Of a stretch of DNA of 36,763 nucleotides, positions 2,503-36,763 are shown piece by piece. The notes under the pieces are model-generated. The model saw only the letters and a list, made by a program, of their open reading frames with translations. It ran no database searches and was not told the DNA's origin. The stretch is from positions 1 to 36,763 of the IMG/VR virus record IMGVR_UViG_3300030102_003131. One strand, 5' to 3'. The stretch comes from a virus. The position numbers and the translations under genes are program-made. Within the stretch, counting starts at the first letter, position 1. Each line of letters begins with the position of its first letter.

Positions 2503-2521
2503 TAGCATTTTGTTAATGCTA
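2503..2521 (-). other. Hairpin at the scaffold stop codon, upstream of the capsid gene
   Basis: A 7-bp inverted repeat (TAGCATT / AATGCTA) with a 5-base loop. It begins at the scaffold stop codon TAG on the minus strand and ends about 25 bases before the capsid start. It has no U-tract, so it is more likely an mRNA stability or processing element than a terminator. Confidence 0.45.
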
Positions 2522-3496
2522 AGTTTTCAATATTAGATCGATTGCATCTTCCATTCGACCTGTCTTTTGCAATTTAGCAAATTGCTTACGCTTTAGTGAA
2601 CCTTCTGGATCAGCTACCTTCTTAGCACCAGCTTTTACAACAGGTTTGGCTTTCTTGCCTTTGGCTTCTGCCTTTTTGCGGTTTGCAACAATACGTCTAA
2701 ACTTCATAGCATCGTTAGCCATTTGGATATAACGTGCATCGGCTGTGGCTGCGATCTCTTCATCGCTAAAGCCATACTCTTTGGCACTATTCATAAGTGA
2801 CTGCCAGTGAGATTGACTCTTTTCTGGATTAGCCAGTTCTGGAATTTTGCCTTTAATTATTTCAGCCTGTTCTGCAACAAAAGACTGGTACTGTTCATCA
2901 GCTTGCCTTTGTTGCTGTTCTTGTAGTTGCTGCATTTGCATCTGCTGCTGCTGGTAACTTTGTAAATCAGCATCATATTTAGCCCTCTGCTCCATATAAG
3001 AAACAGGATCACTCTCAGCTAAAGCCTGATCTGGCAGCTTAGGTGGTGATATAAAGCCTTGCTGTTGAGACTGATTGTAAAGATAATTTACCATTTGCTC
3101 ACGTTGTAAGACCTCAGAAGTCTTTTGCTCAATTTGCTTTCGCATTTCAGCCACTTCCTGAAATCTTTTGTTTATTGCGCTTTGACCTGAATAACTTTGC
3201 TTTAACTGATCTATTGTTACCGTTTCTTCCTTACCATCTGTTTTGACGGTGTAATACTCTGGCTCGACAGTTTCTTCTTCAATGTCAGTTGCTTCAATAT
3301 CAGCATCTAATAATTCCTCATCAGATACCTCTAATTCATCAAGCTCATCGGTTTCTTCAACTGCTTCCACTTCAGCTTCTTCAGCCTCTGGAGTTACAGA
3401 TGTTTCTTCCTCAACTTGATTAGTTTCGCCTGTTTCTTCTTGCGCTGGCGCTATGATTTGTTCAATCGCGCTTTCTATTTTGTCAGTCGTTTCCAC
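2519..3496 (-). CDS. Capsid scaffolding protein
   Basis: A 325-residue protein with a very acidic N-terminal third (Glu/Asp/Val-rich). Next come a Gln-rich, strongly helical middle (about 120-205, with repeated QQQ) and a basic C-terminus (about 265-325, Lys/Ala-rich). This charge layout, an acidic then helical body ending in a basic capsid-binding tail, is typical of phage scaffolds. Its position between portal and major capsid genes agrees. I see no protease motif. It probably co-assembles with the capsid protein and leaves the prohead on DNA packaging. Confidence 0.88.
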   Translation of the reverse strand: METTDKIESAIEQIIAPAQEETGETNQVEEETSVTPEAEEAEVEAVEETDELDELEVSDEELLDADIEATDIEEETVEPEYYTVKTDGKEETVTIDQLKQSYSGQSAINKRFQEVAEMRKQIEQKTSEVLQREQMVNYLYNQSQQQGFISPPKLPDQALAESDPVSYMEQRAKYDADLQSYQQQQMQMQQLQEQQQRQADEQYQSFVAEQAEIIKGKIPELANPEKSQSHWQSLMNSAKEYGFSDEEIAATADARYIQMANDAMKFRRIVANRKKAEAKGKKAKPVVKAGAKKVADPEGSLKRKQFAKLQKTGRMEDAIDLILKT

Positions 3497-3507: not shown

Positions 3508-3744
3508 CTACTCTTTACGATCTAAAAGTGTCTTTGCTGCTATTGCAGCGTCAAGCTGCACTTCGATCTTGTTTAATGCACGCAGTATTGCGTGCGCCTC
3601 TTCACGTTGCTCAACGTCTTGAGCCGCGCTAGTCGTAAAAAGCCTAATTTGCTCATTACGAACATCCTCAACAAACTGCGTAAAAGCAGTATCGTTTTTT
3701 AATCTCTCAGCATCATCTGCCGCTATTCTTATTTCTGTTGTCAT
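3508..3744 (-). CDS. Small helical protein between portal and scaffold genes
   Basis: A 78-residue, mainly helical and acidic protein, not assigned to a family. Its ATG overlaps the portal stop codon (ATGA), implying translational coupling, and the scaffold gene follows 11 bases later. Small helical proteins in this position are common in podophages, and their roles are mostly unknown. A head-assembly accessory function is an inference from position only. Confidence 0.8.
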   Translation of the reverse strand: MTTEIRIAADDAERLKNDTAFTQFVEDVRNEQIRLFTTSAAQDVEQREEAHAILRALNKIEVQLDAAIAAKTLLDRKE

Positions 3745-5843
3745 AACCCTGCTGCTCTAGCGGTCATGTCGTTTATCTGCCGCTCTCTATCTTGCTCTGC
3801 CTTAATCCTAGCTATATCTACCGCTGAACCATATTGACCCAGAGTTTTAGCGGCATCAACATATAAATCTTGTGCCATTTGATCTCTTCTAAGATCATCC
3901 TGCATATTCATTTCTTCGCGTTTTCTAGCATCATCCATCTGCGCTCTTTGCAAATCAACTTGCGCTTTGGTTTGCGCCTTCATTGCTTCAGCCTGCACCA
4001 TAGCTGTTGCAGGGTCTTGCGCTTGCCCTTGCCCTGCTAGTGCGGCTTGCTGCTGTTGTTGTATCTGCAATAGTTGCATCTCTATCTCTGGTGTAATTGG
4101 CGCGAAGTAACGGTCTGCATTTCTAATACCGCTAGACGCTAATATATCAGAAAGAGTATTTCTAATGTTTGTTAGCGATACCAAGCCGTTCATAGGGCCG
4201 TAAGTTTGATAAACCATAGTCTGCTGTTGCAGAGCCATAGCCAGAGCGTTCATTTTCTCCTCTTCTCTGCCAGTGCCAAGCCCCACATTAATGCTTATGT
4301 CCATATCTATATCAAAAGCTTTTGGATCAACAGGTTGAAAACGCCCATTCATACGCATCATAGCGCCATCTTCCATGTTCTTTTGTAGCAATCTCAACAT
4401 TAAGCCAAACAAGTCTCTAGCACCGTCAGCTAGATTTCGCACCATCACCTCTACTTGCCCTGCTGCTGCTTGCACAGTGGCCTGCACAGCGGCCTTAGTT
4501 GTAGACTGCATAGCATCAGGGTCTAAGCCCATAGAGGCCCTAGTAACGCCTGTCTTGCCCTCTACAAGCTGGTCTAAGTAGGTTAGTGCGCCTAGCGTCT
4601 GCCCTGCTGTAAATGGAATAGCTAAATCCTGCACTGCGCCTGCCTGCCTCATACGAACAATCGCGCCTATCTCATTGTTTAAAACATCGTCTATATTTAC
4701 TGCGCCATCGACTATACCAACTCTAGGATTATTAGTCATAGCTACATTGTCTAATATACCTCTCAAAATAGAGGTTGCTGCGTCTTGATCATCTATAACT
4801 AGATCAGCAATACTTCTGCCATAGAACGTGTGTGGTTCTGGGTCTACTTCAAATTTTGCAAAAGGTAATTCATCTGCTAACTCATAATCTAGCAGTTTGT
4901 ACCTAGTTCCACCGCATAGAAATCTATGCAACACAGCAACCCCTGTTCCATCAACGTCCATCCGCATATAAGCTTCTGTTAAAGTAACTTGATTCATAGA
5001 TGGATCAGAGCTTGTTTCATTAAAATCACTTGTATAGCCCTGTCTCTCAGTTCGCTCGGCTTCAGTCATTTCTGTGCCTGCATCAAAACTATCAAGTTTT
5101 AAAACTTCTTCAGCATCAAACCCCATAGCTATAAGATCGCTTGCTCTCATTTCTGTTCTATGAACAACAACATGAGCATCCTCTAGGGTTCTGCAATTTC
5201 TATCTACAAAAAATTCTTCTGGAGGTACGCTTTCTATTTTTAAGCAACCAGCATACATTTTTCTTGATACCTTTGCAGAATGAACAGGCATCTCAACCTC
5301 AACGCCTTGCTCATTCATGCTCATTTCCTGCTCAACGGTATGTTCTAAAACTGTTACATCATCGTCCTGCACTAGAAATGTATACTCATCGTCAGATAGG
5401 TTTGTGTAAGTATATATTTCTGCTTGGGGCATTTCTTCCCAGTAAGCTTTGACTATACCCTGTTTTTTAATTAGCGCATCGTGAAACGCATCGTTCAACA
5501 CCCTATAACCATTGCTGCGCTGAAACTCGTAATGAACGTAATCAGTCGCTTGCTCTGCCATTGCCACATCTTCTGCGCCATGAGGCATAAACTCTACAGG
5601 TCTAGCAGTACTTAAAAACACACGCATCAGGCTAGGCTTAACCGCACGCACAACATCGCGAACTTTAGTTGCAACAACTTTGCTACGCCCATCCTCAAAG
5701 CCTATGTCAACTTCACCATCGTAGTATCTTTGAGCAGTTATCCTATCTTCCGATATTTCGCTTTCAACAAAGTCTACAGCGTCATCAATAGCAGCCTGTA
5801 CAATACTTTCTATTTCACTTTCTGTTTTAGCTTTAAGTTCCAT
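3741..5843 (-). CDS. Portal protein (P22-like)
   Basis: A 700-residue protein, close to the size of the P22 portal (about 725). It should form the dodecameric ring through which DNA is packaged and ejected and to which the tail attaches. Supporting features are a helical N-terminus, a central segment with DPEPHTFYGRSIADLV and DQDAATSILRGILDN of the kind found in P22-type portals, a TKAAVQATVQAAAGQVE helix, and a Gln-rich coiled-coil C-terminus (about 590-700) that may form a barrel. It lies between the internal-protein genes and the scaffold/capsid pair. The start has GAGGGCGG upstream. Confidence 0.92.
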   Translation of the reverse strand: MELKAKTESEIESIVQAAIDDAVDFVESEISEDRITAQRYYDGEVDIGFEDGRSKVVATKVRDVVRAVKPSLMRVFLSTARPVEFMPHGAEDVAMAEQATDYVHYEFQRSNGYRVLNDAFHDALIKKQGIVKAYWEEMPQAEIYTYTNLSDDEYTFLVQDDDVTVLEHTVEQEMSMNEQGVEVEMPVHSAKVSRKMYAGCLKIESVPPEEFFVDRNCRTLEDAHVVVHRTEMRASDLIAMGFDAEEVLKLDSFDAGTEMTEAERTERQGYTSDFNETSSDPSMNQVTLTEAYMRMDVDGTGVAVLHRFLCGGTRYKLLDYELADELPFAKFEVDPEPHTFYGRSIADLVIDDQDAATSILRGILDNVAMTNNPRVGIVDGAVNIDDVLNNEIGAIVRMRQAGAVQDLAIPFTAGQTLGALTYLDQLVEGKTGVTRASMGLDPDAMQSTTKAAVQATVQAAAGQVEVMVRNLADGARDLFGLMLRLLQKNMEDGAMMRMNGRFQPVDPKAFDIDMDISINVGLGTGREEEKMNALAMALQQQTMVYQTYGPMNGLVSLTNIRNTLSDILASSGIRNADRYFAPITPEIEMQLLQIQQQQQAALAGQGQAQDPATAMVQAEAMKAQTKAQVDLQRAQMDDARKREEMNMQDDLRRDQMAQDLYVDAAKTLGQYGSAVDIARIKAEQDRERQINDMTARAAGL

Positions 5844-7547
5844 TTAGCCGCCCTCTATGCTTGCTGCCGAACCAATAAGTTGCCTAATTTCTTGGTCTGT
5901 TATGTTTATTTTCTGCTTAGGTTTTGCGCCTAACATAATTGTTTCTCTAATTCTATTTACAGTTGATCTAGCTAAGGCATCACCAGCGGCTTTTGCTCCA
6001 AACCCAGCGGCTGTTCCTACAACAAAAGCAGGATTTGTTGCTATTGCAGCAATATTTAAAGCCTGCATAAGACCATTTCCAGTAGGGGATAGCTTACCAA
6101 TTAATCTTAATGCATTATCAGAAAGCCTACCCATAACAAAAGCTTCCATCATTTCAATCTCAGGAGGATCAAACTGATCTCTCATTCTTTTATTTGTTAA
6201 TATCTGCTTTGCTGCTTGTCTGTATGAATTTACAATATTACCACCAGACCCTTGAGCAGCCGCAGTAAGTTCTGCCTTGCCTGCGGTTCCCATAACCTCT
6301 TCAAAAAGCTCTATTTTTTTAAGCCTTCTGTAATCATTTCTTGCAGTTCTAATTAAACCTTCAAGAGTTTCTCTTCTAGCATTTGGTGTACTTCCAAATC
6401 TAACTGGAAGATTATTAGGGTTTATATTGTCAATTGGCGTTTTCATTATAATATCATCAAGCTGATCCTTTATAAATCCTACTCTTGGATCATATCCACT
6501 CTTCTTATGTAGAGCGCCTATTCCAGATCTTAAACTATCTAATTGAGCTAAGTTAAACCTTTTACCAGTGTGTTGAATTATTGCCTGTCTTGCCGCATCA
6601 ACATACTCACTGCCAGCAAGCCTAGTCGTATAAGCCATAAATAATCTTTCGCCTTCTTCAGAACGAAAGACTGAATCTTCAACTTTTCTTACAACGTCAT
6701 CCATGTTTATAAATTTACCGCCAGCGGTCATTTCAGCAACCGCGTCATCAAATGCTTTATAAGATGCTTTAGATGCATCTCTGGCTGTTTCTATGGCAGG
6801 CTTCTCCATAGCTCTCTTTTGAAAAGCTGCTAATGTTTTGTTTTTAACACCTGTTGCAGCCATTGGAGCTAAAAAAGCACCGATAACTCTTGCGGCTGGC
6901 TCTGCGGCTGTTCCTTCAGTCAATTGACCAGCGGCCTCACTACCTATGCCAGCTATCGCCGCTGTCTTTCCAGCCTCTAGCGCTCCGCCAACACCTCTAC
7001 CAACACCTAAATCCTGAACACGCTGGCCTGCTTTTTGTAAACCTTCGCCAATAGCTTGCTGCGTTGTCGCTCCAGCATTTGCAGTAGCAGGAAGGTTTGA
7101 CCTATTTTTTGCTAATGCCTTTCCTAAAACTTTAGCACCCTTACCAGCCGCACCAAATGCACCTGTACCGCCAATAAACTCGCCTACAGTGCCTGCATAT
7201 TTTCCTGCGGTTGTTTGTGCTTCATAGTCATCAAGAGATGTTAGATTGCTTAAACCTCTACCTATTTTTGTTTCTAATACAGGTATATCATTACCTTCAT
7301 CCATAAGGCCGACAGCTTGCAAACCTTCCTGCCCTAATCTAGCAGCGCCTCTCAAGGCCATTTCTGGTAAAGCTGCTAAACCTATACCACCTCTTACAAC
7401 ACCACTACCAAAAGACCTTGCTGCATCTTCTACAACGCCAACATCTTCACCCAGCATCTTCATTAACGCTGCGTGAGCGCCTTGGGCGTTATCGCCGCTT
7501 ACTTTGTATTTTTTACCGTCTGGTGCTGTAATGTTAAATGTTGGCAT
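5844..7547 (-). CDS. Putative internal virion (DNA ejection) protein
   Basis: A 567-residue protein. The N-terminus (MPTFNITAPDGKKYKV...GAHAALMKMLG) is a short beta-alpha module often seen at the start of phage structural proteins. It is followed by Gly/Ala-rich hydrophobic stretches, a central helical part (about 240-430) and a further hydrophobic Ala-rich stretch near 490-530. Internal ejection proteins of podophages look like this. It abuts the portal gene, as ejection genes do in several P22-like and marine podophages. No lytic transglycosylase motif is visible. The function is inferred from composition and position. Confidence 0.75.
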   Translation of the reverse strand: MPTFNITAPDGKKYKVSGDNAQGAHAALMKMLGEDVGVVEDAARSFGSGVVRGGIGLAALPEMALRGAARLGQEGLQAVGLMDEGNDIPVLETKIGRGLSNLTSLDDYEAQTTAGKYAGTVGEFIGGTGAFGAAGKGAKVLGKALAKNRSNLPATANAGATTQQAIGEGLQKAGQRVQDLGVGRGVGGALEAGKTAAIAGIGSEAAGQLTEGTAAEPAARVIGAFLAPMAATGVKNKTLAAFQKRAMEKPAIETARDASKASYKAFDDAVAEMTAGGKFINMDDVVRKVEDSVFRSEEGERLFMAYTTRLAGSEYVDAARQAIIQHTGKRFNLAQLDSLRSGIGALHKKSGYDPRVGFIKDQLDDIIMKTPIDNINPNNLPVRFGSTPNARRETLEGLIRTARNDYRRLKKIELFEEVMGTAGKAELTAAAQGSGGNIVNSYRQAAKQILTNKRMRDQFDPPEIEMMEAFVMGRLSDNALRLIGKLSPTGNGLMQALNIAAIATNPAFVVGTAAGFGAKAAGDALARSTVNRIRETIMLGAKPKQKINITDQEIRQLIGSAASIEGG

Positions 7548-7551
7548 TTAA

Positions 7552-8745
7552 TTACTCACTTAGCTCAATGGTATATCCGTCTATAACAGTAACATTAGAA
7601 GCTTGCCCTTCTTGCCCTGTTTCAACATCATTACCTAAAATCATATCAACTTCTGCTTGAGAAAAGAAATCATATGGACTTACCACTTTGCCTGTAAATT
7701 TATTTTTAAGTCCTTTTTCATTATCCATAATTGCAGCATCAATTATTCGCTTCATTGAGGTAATATATTCACCCTTAACTCTTTGAAGATTTCTAACCAC
7801 AATTTCCCTATCTTGGGTTATATCTAAGCTACCCATTGTTGCCCTTAGTGCTTCAAGTTCCTGAACAGCTACCTGACCAAGTGCGCCACCAGTTGGGCTT
7901 TCATCTCTCATTCTTTGCAATCTATCAAAACCAATTGTGGCTGAAACTGTTTCAATTGTCTTAGCTAAGTTTCTAGCCTCTGTGCCACCTATGTTTTGAA
8001 GAAGTTGGCCTCTAAGACCTGTAGCCATTGATGTTCCCATAGCTATTTCAATAGCTCTATCAATGTTTTCTAGAACTATTCTTCCAGACCTTGATTGATT
8101 GGTAAATGTTGCAATCCTTGCCTGATCTTCTTTGCTGGCTTCTTCTTCCTGCTTACCACCTTCAATATTAACAAGTCTTACATTTTGAAATTTACCAGTG
8201 TCATCATAAACAAACTCATAATCTTGACCAGCAGGCGGTTTAGTAAGTGTCTTACGATATTCAGCCTCAAAGCTGTTATCAATCTTACCTGTAAGCATAA
8301 ACCTTTCAAACTCAGGGGTTTTTGGTATAAGCCCTGCGGCAATAGCATTTTTATATCTAGTAGTGCCTGTACCGCCAGACCTAAGCTCTGCAAGTTTTAA
8401 ATCTCTACTATACTTCAAGTCAGCCGCTGTTTTTGCTCGATCAGCCGCTCTTTGTTCTGCTTCCATGCTAAACATTAGGCTGTAAGCATCTTTTGCACCT
8501 AATCCACCTGACTGAACCATTGCAGCTAATCTATCCATGTCAGGTGTACCAAAGCTTTTTAGAAGCTCTATAGTTTTGTTTCTACCCTTTCTTGCAGTCT
8601 GTTGCTGCATGACGTTTTGCAAATCAGCGTTTAGTTGTTGATCTGGAAATGTCCTAAGAGTGTTAAAACCCTTGGCAAGAGCAGCTGCTACAGGTCTAAA
8701 ATCACGATCATCATCTTGCTGAAGGTTAAAAGCGTTTGGTAGCAT
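7552..8745 (-). CDS. Putative internal virion protein
   Basis: A 397-residue, mostly helical protein starting MLPNAFNLQQDDDRDF with GAGGTG upstream. It contains a helical, charged N-terminal part (to about 125), a short beta segment with YEFVYDDTGKFQNVRLV (about 175-192) and a helical C-terminal half. It lies between two other probable internal or ejection proteins, and I infer the same class. There is no recognisable enzymatic motif. Confidence 0.7.
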   Translation of the reverse strand: MLPNAFNLQQDDDRDFRPVAAALAKGFNTLRTFPDQQLNADLQNVMQQQTARKGRNKTIELLKSFGTPDMDRLAAMVQSGGLGAKDAYSLMFSMEAEQRAADRAKTAADLKYSRDLKLAELRSGGTGTTRYKNAIAAGLIPKTPEFERFMLTGKIDNSFEAEYRKTLTKPPAGQDYEFVYDDTGKFQNVRLVNIEGGKQEEEASKEDQARIATFTNQSRSGRIVLENIDRAIEIAMGTSMATGLRGQLLQNIGGTEARNLAKTIETVSATIGFDRLQRMRDESPTGGALGQVAVQELEALRATMGSLDITQDREIVVRNLQRVKGEYITSMKRIIDAAIMDNEKGLKNKFTGKVVSPYDFFSQAEVDMILGNDVETGQEGQASNVTVIDGYTIELSE

Positions 8746-14794: not shown

Positions 14795-15343
14795 CTATTG
14801 CCACTTTGGTCCACAAAACCAAGCTACAAGAGATTTCCTAACACCTTTAGTTACTGGGCTTACTGCGTGTTGCAGATAGCTAGGAAAAATTAAAACTGTT
14901 CCCTTAGGCTTACTTATTTCTGATTTTGGGTTTTCTGTTTCTTGAAATTGAAACTCTCCACCATCATAATCTTGAGGATTACTTAACTGAATTGTTACAG
15001 ATAATTTTCTGTCAACGCCATTACAATTATTCCAATCTATGTCGTGGTGCCAATCGTAGTGACCACCTTCTGACGCATGGTATTCAGTATATTGAATGTC
15101 AGCTTTATTATACAGATTAACGTGAAAGGCATTTTGATTTGCATAATCAGCAAACCCAAATAATAAATCTTTAAGCCAATCATGTTGAGTAAGCCAACAA
15201 ACACGGCTCGACCTAACGCTCTCATCACTATTACTGAAAGTTGACGCTTTTTGCGTTTCTCCTGCTAAATTTATAATATTATCTACAAGCTCTTCCGACA
15301 GGTTACTTGTAAAACATTGCCAATTTTGTCTTGCTGTTGTCAT
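14795..15343 (-). CDS. 2-oxoglutarate/Fe(II) dioxygenase (prolyl-hydroxylase type)
   Basis: A 182-residue single-domain enzyme. The iron triad appears as H99-x-D101 (in DWHHDID) and His159 (in LQHAV), and Arg169 (GVRKSL) should bind 2-oxoglutarate. R-K-L-S-V-T-I-Q-L-S and D-Y-D-G-G-E-F-Q-F are typical of P4H/PKHD hydroxylases. It would hydroxylate a protein or small substrate using O2. It overlaps a second dioxygenase gene by four bases and lies in the fibre cluster, two genes after a collagen-like fibre, which makes virion proteins plausible substrates. This is an inference. Confidence 0.88.
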   Translation of the reverse strand: MTTARQNWQCFTSNLSEELVDNIINLAGETQKASTFSNSDESVRSSRVCWLTQHDWLKDLLFGFADYANQNAFHVNLYNKADIQYTEYHASEGGHYDWHHDIDWNNCNGVDRKLSVTIQLSNPQDYDGGEFQFQETENPKSEISKPKGTVLIFPSYLQHAVSPVTKGVRKSLVAWFCGPKWQ

Positions 15344-15999
15344 TGGCTGCCTCTTGGAAAAAAGAATAAAGCTTGATTAAGTCTATGCTTTGTAGATTTG
15401 TTTTGACCCTCGTAATAAAAATAAGTTTCATCATCAACGGCTGCGCCATGAGGTATTTTAGAGGCATCAAATAAAAAACCTCTGTTAAATTTAGGCGTTA
15501 AATAATTAACTATTTCAAAATCAGTTTTAGGCTTCCAAGGATGACGGTCTTCTTCTGTTTTTCTACCGCCATATTTATAAATGCTACCGTTTTTATCTTC
15601 GTAGATGTTTGTTCCATTTGTTTCATCTTCATTAAGATAAATAATACAAACCCATCCTGCGTCTAAATGCGGAAACCAGTAATTATCTTGATAATTGTTA
15701 AAGTCTGATTTTTTCCAACGCATAAAATTGGTGTCTAAAACGTCAACGCCATTTTCTTTGTAAACATAAAAGTTAGTATCGTCTAAAAGCTCTACTACTT
15801 GATCAGTATACTTTTTTAGAGTTGGCTCTTCCCTATGATGACGTAAATCAAAAAATTCGTCACCATGTTTAGGATGCTCCGTTATAACTTGGTTTGGTGG
15901 ACCAGACAAAATCATATCCATTATAAACCCTGCGTTATCGTAGAAGTTATCTATTTGGAAAGCACGAGTTCCTAGTAAATCAAATTCTTTTACATCCAT
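15340..15999 (-). CDS. Second 2-oxoglutarate/Fe(II) dioxygenase-like protein
   Basis: A 219-residue protein starting MDVKEFDLLG, where ATG overlaps the upstream stop codon (TAATG). The probable triad is H111-x-D113 (WFPHLDAGW) and His184 (KIPHGAAV), with Arg206 (KHRLNQALFFF) as the 2-oxoglutarate ligand. The strand after the HxD motif (VCIIYLNED) and the N-G-T-N-I-Y segment fit the double-stranded beta-helix core. It is not closely similar to the adjacent dioxygenase, so this is not a recent duplication. Substrate unknown. Confidence 0.82.
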   Translation of the reverse strand: MDVKEFDLLGTRAFQIDNFYDNAGFIMDMILSGPPNQVITEHPKHGDEFFDLRHHREEPTLKKYTDQVVELLDDTNFYVYKENGVDVLDTNFMRWKKSDFNNYQDNYWFPHLDAGWVCIIYLNEDETNGTNIYEDKNGSIYKYGGRKTEEDRHPWKPKTDFEIVNYLTPKFNRGFLFDASKIPHGAAVDDETYFYYEGQNKSTKHRLNQALFFFPRGSQ

Positions 16000-16415
16000 T
16001 ATACATCTGGTTTCGTCGGCCAAGTTACATTATCAGGAAAGCCTGATTGCTCTGAAATATCTAGTAAAGCTTGTCTGTAAGATGCCCAACTATTTTGCTG
16101 TTCGGTAGACATTGCAGCCCATCGAAGTGGGTTAGCAAGAATTTCGTCCATTTCAACCAACAAGCCGTAGCGCTCTTCCCTAACATCTCTTTCTTTTTCA
16201 GCAAGTATTTCTTCGGCTGTAGGAGCAACGTAAGCTTCTTTATTAGAACCAATAAGTGTCAACAGCGCACTGTTATCAATCGTCATATCAGTATCGGATG
16301 TATCAAGCGTGTATGGTATCCATCCATGATCTGGATGGTTTATTTCAACATCAATTCGACTACCGTCTTCACTTATAATTTTTGCATTTCTATATTCTGT
16401 AATAGGAGTAGACAT
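15999..16415 (-). CDS. Tail fibre assembly protein-like
   Basis: A 138-residue protein starting [10 protein letters not shown], with GAGG upstream; the ATG overlaps the fibre stop codon. The C-terminus has W-A-S-Y-R-Q-A-L-L-D-I...G-F-P-D-N-V-T-W-P-T-K-P, the usual ending of phage tail-fibre assembly chaperones, and a charged helix precedes it (about 72-95). It directly follows the collagen-like fibre, the expected client. Confidence 0.78.
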   Translation of the reverse strand: MSTPITEYRNAKIISEDGSRIDVEINHPDHGWIPYTLDTSDTDMTIDNSALLTLIGSNKEAYVAPTAEEILAEKERDVREERYGLLVEMDEILANPLRWAAMSTEQQNSWASYRQALLDISEQSGFPDNVTWPTKPDV

Positions 16416-17356
16416 CAAGAAATCCTCACAAATACTGTCGTTGACCACCAATCAGAGTTATGAGCCGAACATTGCCCCATGCTTCTCCATGTTCCTGAAC
16501 GGGTACTTCCTGCATTATAAAGAATGGTTATTCCGTGTGTAGATCCTCTTGTATGATATCCTGCTGTTCTCAAGCCGCTTCCTGCATAGGTGCTGCCAAA
16601 ACCTAAAGTACTACTGCCAACTTTTTTCAAAAAAGCATAAGAGCCTACACTGTTATGGCTTGTACTTGGCGTTCCAGATGGTCCAGTCGGTCCACGAGCG
16701 CCCGTAGGTCCAGTAGGTCCGCGTGCTCCAGTAGGCCCCGTAGGTCCCGTAGGTCCAGTCGCACCGTCTGATCCTGCAGGTCCAGTCGGTCCTACCAATG
16801 CAGCATTTGTTATTGTTGCCTTTTTAAGACCGCTACTTGTTATAACTGGTATTACGTCTGATCCAGATATACTTGTTTCAGTTGCTAACGCATTAATTGC
16901 TGTATTTGTTACATCTGCACCAGAAGAAACCCCATCAAGCTTAGATCCATCCGTTGCTACGTTTCTGCCGTCCACATTTCCAGAAACAACAACATTACCA
17001 GTTACAGTTATGCCGCCACTATCAGCTTGGATTTTTGTAACACCGTCTACTTGCAGCTTTCCAAAGTCACTGGCTATGGAGCTTATAAATACTTTTGCGC
17101 CACCGCTTAAAGATAGTGCGGAGCCACCTCCACTACTTTCACTTGGTGATCTGGTTAAAGTTGTACCACTTGCGCCATAAGTACCAGTTCCGATTTCCCA
17201 ACTTGTTCCATCTTCAATAACATACTGGACAACATCACCATCAGTAACTCCTGCATCCGCAAAAGATTGCATACCAGTATCGGCTGTCGTTAGGGTTAAG
17301 GTTCCCGAGCCAGTAGTTGAGGTGTTCATCTTGGCTCTGTTAAATAGTTTTGCCAT
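16415..17356 (-). CDS. Tail fibre with collagen-like Gly-X-Y stretch
   Basis: A 313-residue protein. The N-terminus ([16 protein letters not shown]) and following beta region with [13 protein letters not shown] are typical of the virion-attachment end of marine phage fibres. Residues of about 189-228 are around 13 Gly-X-Y triplets, mainly GPT with GAR, GPA and GPS, expected to form a trimeric collagen helix. A roughly 80-residue tip follows, rich in Gly, Ser and His. The next gene encodes a probable assembly chaperone, and two dioxygenases follow. Confidence 0.85.
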
Positions 17357-18687: not shown

Positions 18688-19575
18688 TTAAAAACGAGTT
18701 CCCGAAGCAACCATTCTGTCATATACAGATTTAGCCATTGGCAAATCATTCATCAAGAAACTCATATTTGGGTCATTTCTAGCCATTGTTAAAAATCTAT
18801 TAAAACCCTCATCAGCCGTTGCTTGAGATGGTGGTAAAGGAACACCAGCGCCAACTTCTATGTTCATTTGCCCCCTTGGATCGGTAGGCATATCATAAGA
18901 TGGCCCAGAGAAAGGATTAGGTAAAGAACCTCTACCAGCCTCACCCATGTTCATAGTTCCATAAGGTAATGGTGTATCGGCAGGCATAGAGCCTCTTCCA
19001 GCTTCACCCATATTCATAGTTCCATAAGGTAATGGTGTATCGGCAGGCATAGAGCCTCTTCCAGCTTCACCCATATCCATAGTCGCATATGATGGAGCTG
19101 GAGTTCTACTAGGTCTAATCTGCGGTCTAGGAATTGATCCACCTTGCACATTAGGCGAAGTGCTGGGGCTAACAAACATACGCTCACGCTGTGAACCATA
19201 TGGATCAATGCCAATTTGATTTAATACACCGCTAAGAGGACCACCAACAAACTCATCGCCTCTTGTGTTTCTACCACCACCATCAATCATATCTATAATG
19301 GCAGGAACATAACGCTTATTTACCTCATCAAAGTAACCAAAGCTTTTATCAGTATTAGCAGCTTTTCTATCAGCCGCAGAGGTGTTTTCATATCTAGAAC
19401 CACCTTTATTAGAACCTAAGCCTCCAGACCTAGCTTTAGCTCCACTACCAAGTGGACCACCTGTTTTGCTACCACCGCCTCTTCTCATAGAAGCAAAATG
19501 TGCTGCGTGTGGGTTTTTCATGCCTAAAGCTCTATAGTGAGCCTCAACTCTCTGCATATGCTCTTCATTTGCCAT
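18688..19575 (-). CDS. Hypothetical protein with tandem 21-residue repeats
   Basis: A 295-residue protein, Gly/Pro/Met/Ser-rich and probably disordered. The N-terminus has MQRVEAHYRALGMKNPHAAHFASM. A repeated unit ending in MGEAGRGSMPADTPLPYGTM occupies about residues 160-225. It ends in a short helical segment with AKSVYDRMVASGTRF. The start codon overlaps the stop of the upstream 39-residue gene (TAATG). The function is unknown. Its place among the small basic genes behind the terminase suggests a head or DNA-associated role. Confidence 0.75.
   Translation of the reverse strand: MANEEHMQRVEAHYRALGMKNPHAAHFASMRRGGGSKTGGPLGSGAKARSGGLGSNKGGSRYENTSAADRKAANTDKSFGYFDEVNKRYVPAIIDMIDGGGRNTRGDEFVGGPLSGVLNQIGIDPYGSQRERMFVSPSTSPNVQGGSIPRPQIRPSRTPAPSYATMDMGEAGRGSMPADTPLPYGTMNMGEAGRGSMPADTPLPYGTMNMGEAGRGSLPNPFSGPSYDMPTDPRGQMNIEVGAGVPLPPSQATADEGFNRFLTMARNDPNMSFLMNDLPMAKSVYDRMVASGTRF
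18955..19080 (-). repeat. Two tandem 63-bp repeats inside the 295-residue protein gene
   Basis: Units 18955-19017 and 19018-19080 are nearly identical, and a diverged partial unit flanks each side. The period is a multiple of three (21 residues), so copy number can change without frameshift. Confidence 0.85.
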
Positions 19576-22281: not shown

Positions 22282-22323
22282 ATTTTTTCCGCAAAAGTTA
22301 TGTTCAACATACTACAATTAATA

Positions 22324-22356
22324 ATTATTAATGCCTATAGGCATTTTAATAATTAA
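22324..22356. repeat. 33-bp repeat with 16-bp palindrome, copy upstream of terS
   Basis: This is identical to 27979-28011. It contains the perfect palindrome AATGCCTATAGGCATT (22330-22345) flanked by AT-rich sequence. It begins 43 bases upstream of the terS start. Both copies lie just upstream of leftward genes, suggesting an operator or replication element. Confidence 0.85.
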
Positions 22357-22446
22357 TTAACCTTAAGTATAGGTATGTCTTACTAGTATTAAAGCCCTTA
22401 AAAATATAGAAAATATTAAAATATTAATAAAATATCTGCAAAATAC

Positions 22447-27967: not shown

Positions 27968-27978
27968 TAATATTATTT

Positions 27979-28011
27979 ATTATTAATGCCTATAGGCATT
28001 TTAATAATTAA
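27979..28011. repeat. 33-bp repeat with 16-bp palindrome, second copy
   Basis: This is identical to 22324-22356, with AATGCCTATAGGCATT at 27985-28000. It sits between the primase-helicase gene and the small genes at 27.5-27.97 kb, next to repeated CTTAATAATT. Confidence 0.85.
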
Positions 28012-28016
28012 ATAAG

Positions 28017-28094
28017 CTTAATAATTTATGTTCGTTTTCTTAATAATGCTTAATAATTGCATTTATAAGTTATTGTTTTTTAAACTTAATAATT
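28017..28094 (+). repeat. Four CTTAATAAT(T) direct repeats (iteron-like, possible origin)
   Basis: Copies are at 28017-28026, 28039-28047, 28049-28058 and 28085-28094, in a 128-bp AT-rich gap directly behind the primase-helicase gene. One inverted copy lies at 22469-22478. Iterons next to a replication gene plus an AT-rich palindrome are typical of phage origins, but function is inferred. Confidence 0.5.
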
Positions 28095-34066: not shown

Positions 34067-34273
34067 ATCGAATATTTTACCTTATTAACAATAGTTTATC
34101 CGCTAATGGAGCATGATTGGCAGTTTAGCATATGGTTTCCAAGTGAAGATGAGTGCTGGAGTATACTAATGAGTAGCGGCACTCTCTATGATAAAATCAA
34201 TGCTACAGAAGGTTACTGTCAGGTTAGTGATGTAGCTTCTAAAATAGTTAAACCAGTTCTTAGGCCGTGGTGA
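34067..34273 (+). CDS. Small protein with probable AUC start codon (68 aa)
   Basis: The frame carries IEYFTLLTIVYPLMEHDWQF, then W-F-P-S-E-D-E-C-W-S, ending I-V-K-P-V-L-R-P-W. GAGGAG lies at 34054-34059, seven bases from ATC at 34067, and a stop codon lies two codons upstream of that ATC, so no ordinary start fits the site. The only ATG in the first part (34106) has no ribosome site and would remove the hydrophobic N-terminus. Short proteins of this form with Cys and a C-terminal R-P motif occur in marine phages. The last 14 bases overlap the endolysin gene on the other strand. Confidence 0.65.
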   Translation: MEYFTLLTIVYPLMEHDWQFSIWFPSEDECWSILMSSGTLYDKINATEGYCQVSDVASKIVKPVLRPW

Positions 34274-34889
34274 GCCACTCATAAATCTTTTTAGTTTGCT
34301 CTATACGATCTTTTAGGCCATGCGTGCCTCCATTTACACGCTTGGTCACAGCCTTGATTGTATTATCGTCAACACCGTTATCGCATATGCTAAACAGCTT
34401 GTTAGACCTAAAGAACCACAAGGCTGATTCAAAGGCATATTCAGTCTCAACAAACGCTGGATGTTTCATTACATCAGGCAAACGCATATCACTGCTAAAT
34501 GATCTGTAATTAGAACGCCCTGTTAGCTGAATAAAACCTTTTCCTGCAAATTTAAAACCATCTCCAGACGCTTCATCACCGTTCCCCATACGATCACTAT
34601 AAACATTGTTAGCCAGTGCTTCTGGATTCTTAACGTAAGGCTGTGCATCTTCTACAGATTTAAATCGACTAGGCCATACAGCCATCAGTCTTTCTGGTGT
34701 ACTGTAATACAAACCTTCCTTAGTGCGTTTAAACCCACCGCTTTCGTGGTGGGCCTGTCCTAACAGGTGCGCCCCACGTTTGTCTGATAACTCATAGTGT
34801 TTTGCTATAGCTCTAGCTGTGTTGGGGCCAAATGATCCATCGTCATCCACACCACATTTAGCTTGTAGTATTTTTAATGCTGTACTCAT
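34260..34889 (-). CDS. Endolysin, glycoside hydrolase 19 type
   Basis: A 209-residue protein. The N-terminal segment resembles a peptidoglycan-binding helix pair (LQAKCGVDDDGSFGPNTARAI, about 8-28). The catalytic domain has Glu49 in HHESGGF and Glu58 in K-E-G-L-Y-Y, then P-E-A-L-A-N-N-V-Y-S-D-R-M-G-N, G-K-G-F-I-Q-L-T-G-R-S-N-Y: a GH19 chitinase/lysozyme-type muramidase. It cuts the cell wall at the end of infection. No signal peptide is seen, so it needs the holin just upstream, with which it overlaps by four bases. Confidence 0.93.
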   Translation of the reverse strand: MSTALKILQAKCGVDDDGSFGPNTARAIAKHYELSDKRGAHLLGQAHHESGGFKRTKEGLYYSTPERLMAVWPSRFKSVEDAQPYVKNPEALANNVYSDRMGNGDEASGDGFKFAGKGFIQLTGRSNYRSFSSDMRLPDVMKHPAFVETEYAFESALWFFRSNKLFSICDNGVDDNTIKAVTKRVNGGTHGLKDRIEQTKKIYEWLTTA

Positions 34890-35263
34890 TTTTTACTATC
34901 CGTTTTCTTTAGCTTGTCGAATGATCTCATTCCACCCATACCTAACATACCTAATAACAATGGCATCATTACTGACATATCTGCTTGAGGTATGTTAAAA
35001 CCAAAGCCCATAGCTATTGGGGCCACCATGTAATTTATACCGAGAGATATGCCTCCGATCCAGCCTATGAGCGGCCTCCAAGACGATTGGAACCAGTTGC
35101 CTTGAGCGTCAGCTTTGAGTATTTCTAACTGAGCCATAGCAAGCTCCTGAGCGTGCTTATCACTCATTGTCGCTATTTCATGCGCTAACCTTGCGGCTTG
35201 GTCTTTGTCTTTTATAACTTTTCCAAGTAAACCACTAACAGGCTCAATAAGTTTATCTATCAT
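34886..35263 (-). CDS. Holin, GTA_holin_3TM-type
   Basis: A 125-residue protein. The soluble helix with D-K-D-Q-A-A-R-L-A-H-E-I (about 20-31) and A-Q-E-L-A-M-A-Q-L-E is followed by S-S-W-R-P-L-I-G-W (about 59-67) and two or three hydrophobic segments to about 112, then L-L-L-G-M-L-G-M-G-G-M-R-S-F-D-K. This matches holins first described in gene transfer agents. It permeabilises the inner membrane. It overlaps the endolysin gene and the upstream membrane gene by ATGA. Confidence 0.88.
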   Translation of the reverse strand: MIDKLIEPVSGLLGKVIKDKDQAARLAHEIATMSDKHAQELAMAQLEILKADAQGNWFQSSWRPLIGWIGGISLGINYMVAPIAMGFGFNIPQADMSVMMPLLLGMLGMGGMRSFDKLKKTDSKK

Positions 35264-35565
35264 TGTTCTTTACCCATGTTAGTGAACCCATAATATGCTG
35301 CAACAATAGCAGCAATACTGACATAATATATATTACTCATAGATGATAACATTTCTGAAGCTCTAGGTAGCTCCATCCATTCAGTAAACACTACGCCAAA
35401 AGGAAACAAAAGCATACCAGTAAGGCTAAACCATGCCATGCGCCTCTGTGCATCTCTTTTAGCATCAGCATCAATCATAATGCGCTTTCTATCTTCAAGC
35501 ATTATTGCACGCTCGTCTGGATCAATCTTGCCGTTATCATTTAAATCATATTTTGCTTTGGGCAT
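35260..35565 (-). CDS. Lysis-cluster membrane protein with EF-hand loop
   Basis: A 101-residue protein starting MPKAKYDLNDNGKIDPDERA. GAGGA lies eight bases before this ATG; the TTG 15 bases upstream sits on that site. DLNDNGKIDPDE is a complete 12-residue calcium-loop pattern (D1, N3, N5, D9, E12). A charged helix and two transmembrane segments (about 40-60 and 73-93) follow. It overlaps the holin by ATGA, so a role in lysis control is likely. Calcium binding is an inference. Confidence 0.75.
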   Translation of the reverse strand: MPKAKYDLNDNGKIDPDERAIMLEDRKRIMIDADAKRDAQRRMAWFSLTGMLLFPFGVVFTEWMELPRASEMLSSMSNIYYVSIAAIVAAYYGFTNMGKEQ

Positions 35566-35743
35566 CTGCGTATTCCTCAACTATCTTTCTATTGTATCCT
35601 AGTATTATAAGCCTACCATTTTTATCGTATGCTGCAAACTTCTTACCTCTTTCGATTATTGTTGGGCGTTTACTTCGAGGCAAGTCACTTTCATCGAGTT
35701 GTGTGTTACCATGATTTTTGCCTTTTCTGCTTGCTCTAGGCAT
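35546..35743 (-). CDS. Small basic protein, first gene of the lysis group (65 aa)
   Basis: A strongly basic N-terminus (MPRASRKGKNHG) and a compact beta C-terminal region with F-A-A-Y-D-K-N-G-R-L-I-I-L-G-Y. It overlaps the EF-hand gene. In the circular map it directly follows the 151-residue gene across the junction. Not recognised. Confidence 0.68.
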   Translation of the reverse strand: MPRASRKGKNHGNTQLDESDLPRSKRPTIIERGKKFAAYDKNGRLIILGYNRKIVEEYADAQSKI

Positions 35744-35825
35744 TGCTCTTTATCCGAATATGTGCCGATCTGATAGTATTGTAGGCGATCTGTACTAATA
35801 AAATGTAAAAAAACCAAAACATAAA

Positions 35826-36281
35826 TCATGGAAAGTAATCCCTTACGTCAATCCAATTCATATAGTGAAGATAAGCAGCAGCACCGACAAATGTAAAAAC
35901 AAGCAAAACAGCTATACCAGCTATTGTAATCATAAGCTCCTGCTGTGCGATTGCATCCCTTCTAGCTTGAGCTTCCGCTTCTCTCTTTTCTTGCAAAACT
36001 TCTCTGCGTATTTTTAGCAAAGTTTGCCAGTGTGACGGACCTAGCGTTTCTGATATAAATTTCTTTAATTCCTCTTCAGCTTCAGCCGCTTGCCTCAGCT
36101 TTTGAAAACGCTCCATAGCTATGGCATTTACACTTTTGCTTGAAACACCTTTTTTTTGTAGTTGTTTTTTTGCATTGTCAGTTGCATCAAAAAACTGCCC
36201 AATTTGTTTTGACAAGCTTGCTACAGATTTACCAGCGGCTAAACCTGTTTTTAACCCTGCAAGGATTGTTATGGGGTCCAT
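35826..36281 (-). CDS. Hypothetical membrane-anchored protein, allele 2
   Basis: A 151-residue homologue of 61-516 with the same N-terminus and topology, but 48 residue differences concentrated in the second half, including the transmembrane segment. It probably represents a different strain version at the overlapping end of the contig. If it is a real second copy, it would be a diverged tandem duplicate. Confidence 0.85.
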   Translation of the reverse strand: MDPITILAGLKTGLAAGKSVASLSKQIGQFFDATDNAKKQLQKKGVSSKSVNAIAMERFQKLRQAAEAEEELKKFISETLGPSHWQTLLKIRREVLQEKREAEAQARRDAIAQQELMITIAGIAVLLVFTFVGAAAYLHYMNWIDVRDYFP

Positions 36282-36283
36282 CG

Positions 36284-36700
36284 CTATCTACCATCAGACA
36301 TTGTTGGTCTTCTTGCTAGAAACTCTAATGTGCTTTCTAAAGTCTTAATCCTAGCTTGTAGTTTGATGATCTGATTAAATTGTAACAGAAAACCCTCTTG
36401 GGTTTCGTATACGTCTTCAAACTCTTCATATATTTCATCAATGGTTTCGGAACCGTCTTCTTCTACTTCTATGATGTAATCAATTATCTCATCTATACGC
36501 TCAGTGTTTTCTTCTACATCACGAATTAAGTTTGTTCGATCAGTTGCGTTGTTCTCAATCGTAAGAGTTTCAACTTGCTCTGTAAGCCCTTCAATAATTG
36601 AGGCTTGAGAGCTTGCATACCATATACCACCGCCCACGGTACTGACTATTGCCACTACCGCACTTGCAGCAACAGCTATATTTACCTTGGGCAGCTCCAC
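36284..36700 (-). CDS. Acidic coiled-coil protein, second allele
   Basis: 138 residues, differing from 519-935 at only four positions (one Gly/Ser, two Val/Ile, one Asn/Ser). It has the same N-terminal anchor and acidic helix. Confidence 0.85.
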   Translation of the reverse strand: MELPKVNIAVAASAVVAIVSTVGGGIWYASSQASIIEGLTEQVETLTIENNATDRTNLIRDVEENTERIDEIIDYIIEVEEDGSETIDEIYEEFEDVYETQEGFLLQFNQIIKLQARIKTLESTLEFLARRPTMSDGR

Positions 36701-36701
36701 G

Positions 36702-36763
36702 TTAGTAGCTACCTTCCCAAACTCTCAGTTTGGCAAATTCATTGCTCATTAGCTTTCTTTTTA
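36702..36763 (-). CDS. Partial neck-type gene, cut by the window end
   Basis: Contains only the last 20 or so codons, ending F-A-K-L-R-V-W-E-G-S-Y, of the gene seen complete at 937-1227. The 5' part lies outside the window. Confidence 0.75.
   Translation of the reverse strand, partial: KRKLMSNEFAKLRVWEGSY

Follow-up and report, generated by a model that had tools for sequence, protein, structure and literature searches.

Imperfect end repeat of a marine phage record: a probable double closure of one circular map at a recombining two-gene cassette

Why should a viral contig begin and end with the same two genes in different versions? The question is raised by a virus record of 36,763 bases, which was analysed over its whole length (the window) and encodes an SU10-type capsid and portal, a terminase, a primase-helicase, a three-transmembrane holin and an endolysin. 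Bases 1-998 recur as a direct repeat at 35766-36763, and the two copies were aligned without gaps at the constant offset of 35765 with 206 mismatches. The first-pass annotation had described a 998-nt repeat of constant offset with 77 identical leading bases, and had counted 4 and 48 residue differences in two encoded proteins of 138 and 151 residues; the alignment of both copies and the comparison of the proteins gave the same values. All 206 differences were located inside repeat positions 78-909, a confinement with a probability of about 10^-18 under uniform placement. The outer limits are identical, namely the first 77 nt (1-77 and 35766-35842) and the last 89 nt (repeat positions 910-998; the second copy, 36675-36763, is the contig end). 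The minus-strand variable block of 832 bp, 25% of which differs between the copies, is referred to as allele A at 78-909 and allele B at 35843-36674.

Almost the whole of two genes on the minus strand, with 138 and 151 codons and 2 nt between them, falls within the block, and the reading frames are intact in both copies. The 151 gene (61-516 in allele A, 35826-36281 in allele B) ends in the 77-nt flank, which also holds a small overlapping ORF, and the 138 gene (519-935 and 36284-36700) starts in the 89-nt flank, where the gene of a 108-aa protein ends. Between the two alleles, 48 residues of the 151-aa protein and 4 of the 138-aa protein are changed. Within this single contig, one protein seems hypervariable, as if active diversification machinery, a retroelement or an invertase, were rewriting the 151 gene. 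Such machinery is extremely improbable here: reverse transcriptase, tyrosine integrase and resolvase had no match in the record, no inverted repeats of the minimum length of 30 were detected in the window, and the changes were of all kinds, with a majority in the third position of codons (151 gene: 79 of 151; 138 gene: 43 of 54) and with 119 of the 206 involving the base A.

At the DNA level, the 138 gene is not near-identical between the alleles, as had been stated for everything outside the 151 gene: 54 differences in 417 nt correspond to 87% identity. Fourfold silent sites differed in 20 of 51 cases in the 138 gene and in 18 of 43 in the 151 gene (Fisher p 0.84), and the codons that keep their residue differed in 42 of 132 and 45 of 100 cases, respectively (p 0.055). 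Since the silent divergence is alike in the two genes, the contrast between 4 and 48 residues is mostly one of amino-acid constraint, the 138 protein being the more constrained of the two between alleles A and B.

Next to allele A, the minus strand encodes the 108-aa protein of unknown function between capsid and cassette (937-1263), the similarity of which tracks the capsid gene and not the cassette, the major capsid protein (1522-2478; SU10_MCP, E 2.7e-82), a head scaffolding protein (2519-3496; phrog_3927, E 4.9e-48) and the portal protein (3741-5843; SU10_portal, E 7.2e-191). Next to allele B, on the same strand, are a 57-aa ORF (35656-35829), the ATG of which overlaps the stop of the 151 gene (ATGA), a 65-aa basic ORF (35546-35743), both without a family match, a 106-aa membrane protein (35260-35580), which comes after the cassette in relatives, the holin (34886-35263; profile match to GTA_holin_3TM) and the endolysin (34260-34889; phrog_181, E 8.5e-55). 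To place the ends relative to each other, 233 loci of relatives, some of them from one contig, were gathered by similarity to the 138, 151 and capsid proteins. The order capsid-138-151-106 on one strand was found in all 55 loci carrying the four genes, and the order 138-151-106 in 101 of the 101 carrying the three. Duplicate copies were found in none of the collected loci, neither for 138 (0/161) nor for 151 (0/179). Closing the window leaves a gap of 245 nt between the 151 and 106 genes, the same value as in 4 of 25 relatives. Since relatives carry the cassette once, between the capsid and the lysis genes, the two ends of the window adjoin, and the best reading is a single map of 35,765 bp, circular or at least circularly permuted, on which the 832-bp two-gene cassette has two alleles. 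A circular map of about this size had been proposed from the repeat, and it is supported by the gene order, the lack of duplicates, the 245-nt gap and the wrap-round of relatives described below. With regard to end overlap, the same sequence is present at both ends, but the overlap is not an identical one (206 of 998 positions differ).

Intact reading frames in both copies and a repeat at both ends, as with the terminal repeats of linear phage DNA, would also be expected of a true duplication, i.e. one molecule carrying two diverged cassette copies at its ends like a degenerate terminal redundancy. Terminal redundancy, being copied in each round, should however be identical, whereas a quarter of the block differs; no collected locus carries two copies, the joined order equals that of the relatives, and a related contig wraps round over 14 kb with a 77-nt start of the same kind. 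A duplication is thus rated very unlikely.

Twelve related contigs were fetched whole, and two of them (G001 and G003) had the same imperfect wrap-round. G001 (50,498 bp; loci L162/L171) overlaps itself over 14 kb at offsets of 36.7-38.2 kb in pieces of 71-90% identity, which amounts to 1.4 laps round a circular map, and carries two capsid alleles with 96% and 85% identity to that of the window. The end repeat of G003 covers 184 nt at 94%. The exact leading repeat was 77 nt in the window and 77 nt in G001, not one base more, and 47 nt in G003. Rather than being biological, the 77 shared bases probably reflect the k-mer of a de Bruijn assembler that begins its contigs at branch points, 77 being a common largest k of metaSPAdes; the right-hand identity of 89 nt is not explained as a k-mer. 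An exact search of viral_contigs with the shared flank gave no match. Portal proteins of the twelve contigs were 87-95% identical to that of the window. In the 11 of them that reach the cassette, the 106 protein was 85-100% identical (63% in G005), and against allele A the 138 and 151 proteins had identities of 45-95% and 64-83%, so that a variable block lies between conserved neighbours in the manner of a hypervariable region.

Assemblies of relatives tend to break where the window breaks. In loci fetched with the capsid, the first 2 kb downstream of its gene, where the 108, 138 and 151 genes lie, contained 32 of 63 reachable contig ends, compared with 6 of 44 for the first 2 kb upstream. Ends accumulated a second time (25 of 44) 2.5-3.5 kb upstream of the capsid, at the distal end of the portal gene. 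Just past the portal, at 5844-8745, the window carries genes of 567 and 397 aa, for which one relative has counterparts 85-91% alike and the others have counterparts 29-40% alike or none; contig ends cluster in this region as well.

Further features were noted in other parts of the window. Positions 22317-22366 and 27972-28021 form a 50-nt near-repeat (92%), 5.6 kb apart, with the perfect palindrome AATGCCTATAGGCATT; it sits at both edges of the plus-strand gene region and looks like a regulator or terminator site. A collagen-repeat protein with 9-nt units is encoded at 16415-17356 (Pfam Collagen, E 2.9e-7), and the adjoining ORFs at 14795-15343 and 15340-16023 had no counterpart in the twelve related contigs. 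At 18919-19107, a 63-nt unit occurs in three head-to-tail copies within a 295-aa ORF.

Allele B could also come from another, unrelated phage and have been misjoined at a short identical stretch in a pure assembly chimera. The shared flanks of just 77 and 89 nt are about one k-mer long, and phages whose capsids differ greatly can have cassette genes at least 90% alike, as in locus L018, where 138 is at 93-94% while the capsid is at 34%. On the other hand, allele B is flanked by shared sequence at either end, and what follows it at 36675-36763 is the exact 138 gene start and 108 gene end of the same phage, the latter gene tracking the capsid lineage and not the cassette. A chimera of this kind is accordingly considered unlikely, though less so than the duplication.

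The end repeat most likely arose as the assembler closed a circular phage map twice through a locus at which coexisting strains differ. The assembly path round the circular map of one phage population would enter the locus twice, with allele A first and allele B second, and coexisting phages would carry different cassette versions on an otherwise common, co-assembled background. The earlier proposal of two coexisting strains is retained as two alleles of one map, on the strength of gene order, absence of duplicates and wrap-round; that both strains were present in one sample is something we infer. The reading as a whole, a strain-allele map closed twice at a cassette that is a recombination hot spot in marine phages, is regarded as probable, with good though not full confidence.

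The origin of the two alleles was followed by ranking their relatives along the genes. In the 138 gene, A and B rank 1-2 for each other up to codon 46, 13 and 7 at codons 47-69, 3 and 1 at codons 70-92 and 16 and 14 at codons 93-115; in the last part, B ranks 12 for A, after 16. Along the 151 gene, the rank of B for A lies between 54 and 93 out of 116, and A changes its best match every 75-150 nt (L076/L077, L030, L029, L055/L049). In terms of block classes, A and B share both 138 blocks (classes 7 and 2) and differ in both 151 blocks (middle block class 5 in A and 3 in B, C block class 1 in A and 3 in B). Because A and B stop being nearest kin already within the 138 gene, several old breakpoints are indicated, and the comparison points to old recombination between and within the two genes at several places. 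The single recombination boundary that had been placed near 516/36281 is not borne out: silent divergence has no step there, the sharp limits are 78 and 909, and the kinship switches inside the 138 gene.

The coupling of the two genes was then determined across marine phages. In all of 98 distinct cassettes, 138 lies directly beside 151, with a gap of 1-9 nt. Near duplicates (>97% identity) and incomplete genes were dropped, and the core set excludes 15 of the 117 151 proteins, which had <55% identity. The similarities of 138 and 151 are linked weakly at most, with a Mantel rho of 0.10 (null mean 0.001, SD 0.048, maximum of 500 shuffles 0.146). Of 252 pairs with 151 proteins at least 90% identical, 163 had 138 proteins below 80% and 78 below 60%. 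With near duplicates removed, rho was 0.73 for scaffold-capsid and 0.82 for capsid-108, and 0.003, 0.09 and 0.06 for 108-138, 138-151 and 151-106, respectively. These loci had been selected by similarity to 138 or 151, and sampling on one gene lowers correlations; the test was therefore repeated on 80 loci chosen through the 106 gene as a neutral anchor, which resulted in 0.29 for 138-151 (n=42), 0.12 for 151-106 (n=16) and 0.80 for capsid-108 (n=10). In a small capsid-chosen set, rho was 0.285 for 138-151 (n=7), 0.02 for capsid-138 (n=11) and 0.01 for capsid-endolysin (n=17); against the pattern, 151-106 and 106-endolysin reached 0.77 and 0.86 (n=8 each).

Within the genes, the alignments of 138 and 151 display discrete block versions in differing combinations. 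Residues 35-100 and 101-151 of 151 were correlated with a rho of 0.16, compared with 0.79 for 35-66 and 67-100 (n=82), and the first and last thirds of 138 with 0.11 (n=73). The within-gene controls were 0.48-0.66 for capsid thirds (n=40), 0.62-0.80 for the scaffold (n=14), 0.50-0.54 for the endolysin (n=39) and 0.45-0.71 for the 108 protein. The first third of the 106 protein was also poorly coupled to its rest (0.19-0.21, n=12), so that the recombination hot spot may be wider than the cassette. In the 106-anchored set, the values were 0.32 for the 151 blocks, 0.06 for the 138 ends, 0.81 for endolysin halves, 0.71 for capsid halves and 0.42 for 106 halves. Forty different four-block combinations were found among 68 cassettes. 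In the pairwise homoplasy test (PHI), performed with the first 60 of 82 151 rows, 60 of 68 138 rows and 60 capsid rows, z was -5.8 inside 151 and -6.1 inside 138, and the capsid gene (-0.65) had no recombination found.

Exchanging the trees of 138 and 151, or of the two 151 parts, lost 30-44% of the log-likelihood versus 5-9% for the capsid controls; the AU test (36 and 34 rows) rejected the exchanged trees for the capsid controls too and is without discrimination, only the effect size being different. A quarter-wise test that kept distant members gave 0.62-0.88 for 151 segments and 0.27-0.53 for endolysin quarters, and the high 151 values are attributed to those distant members. Capsid, scaffold and endolysin are not block-mosaic to the degree of 138 and 151. 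Of the 2292 151-gene pairs with identities under 80%, 2 had an exact run of at least 55 nt in common and none had one of 77 nt, which makes short-read chimeras an unlikely source of the mosaicism. No fixed linker sequence was seen at the block limits, and synonymous sites there were not specially conserved.

The cassette would thus act as a recombination hot spot in marine phages. Homologous exchange between co-infecting phages at short similar stretches would be the probable mechanism, swapping 138 against 151 and also the N against the C part within each gene, which would lead to nearly free block combinations. The selection on both families is purifying: the median pairwise dN/dS was 0.116 for 151 and 0.081 for 138, compared with 0.085 for the capsid and 0.192 for the scaffold. 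Positive selection on 151 was rejected at the level of pairwise dN/dS. The strong diversification of one membrane protein suggested earlier does not amount to positive selection, and 138 is equally variable among relatives.

As to the role of the proteins, a Kyte-Doolittle window placed a single N-terminal membrane stretch in 138, from about residue 8 and followed by an acidic helical C part, and one C-terminal stretch in 151, from about residue 116 and preceded by a cytoplasmic-looking N part. Members of the 138 family matched phrog_739 in 18 of 31 cases at E up to 0.01 (best 6.3e-5) and phrog_214 in 8 of 31, i.e. a weak similarity to Rz-like spanins. No lipobox candidate for an o-spanin partner was present in the gene frames scanned, the sole match being LTSC in a 35-aa frame within the endolysin gene. 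The 151 protein matched uncharacterised families only, and all five Foldseek matches of its model among viral models at E <0.001 were unnamed or uncharacterised proteins. The structure models are all helical and too weak to name a fold (mean pLDDT 65 for 151 and 50 for 138). The 151 family had no match in 50,697 phage records and was matched in 174 loci of viral contigs. Searches of defence families (PADLOC) and NCBIfam gave weak matches only, far below the cut-offs where these exist. A host-genome scan resulted in a single match, a 29,798-bp MAG contig equal in size to the IMG/VR record of locus L048, so that the scan names no host.

We tentatively suggest, with somewhat less than even confidence, that 138 and 151 are envelope (inner-membrane) proteins of the lysis region. 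Judging by position and weak profiles, 138 is likely i-spanin-like and 151 its tail-anchored partner or a regulator. The cassette diversity may be kept because each protein part meets different host-envelope partners. A more far-reaching and rather doubtful idea is that the cassette serves uncultured marine phages as a dedicated specificity locus, in which block exchange and frequency-dependent selection would keep many combinations; the causes might be, for instance, superinfection exclusion of phages with the same combination or a match to a polymorphic host envelope protein.

That phage genomes are mosaic is textbook knowledge, but the exchanged units usually described are entire genes or large domains, chiefly of tail fibres and endolysins. 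In the cassette, two neighbouring genes with some 140 codons each and 2 nt between them reassort almost freely, mutually and internally, in phages with quite different capsids. This suggests that a strong, unexplained pressure acts on these two small membrane proteins next to the lysis genes. An imperfect repeat at the ends of a viral contig can reflect a strain bubble, and such genomes may be complete despite their non-identical ends. The direct terminal repeats of linear phage DNA are identical copies, unlike those of the window.

In the openly accessible literature on metaviromic islands, domain shuffling and lysis-protein diversity, no description of the 138-151 cassette was found. Rz-like i-spanins (PMC6139136) resemble 138 in having an N-terminal membrane stretch, a helical rest, a place near holin and endolysin and, on the side of 138, weak phrog_739 and phrog_214 matches; 138 differs in that no lipobox partner was found nearby, and the similarity is too low to name it. 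A survey of domain shuffling in phage proteins stresses receptor-binding proteins, endolysins and polymerases and refers to spanins and holins as under-represented in domain databases (PMC10684548). In both cases, recombination joins parts of proteins in many combinations, also between distant phages, whereas the units swapped in the cassette are blocks within homologous proteins that are only 138 and 151 residues long. The metaviromic islands or hypervariable regions of marine phages (PMC3909814, PMC11094077) are defined by read under-recruitment, and the Sargasso study links them to host recognition, DNA synthesis and packaging. Like these islands and regions, the cassette is a small part of the genome that varies among coexisting relatives and breaks short-read assemblies; unlike them, it consists of two adjacent small membrane-protein genes by the lysis genes, with the exchange taking place inside the genes.
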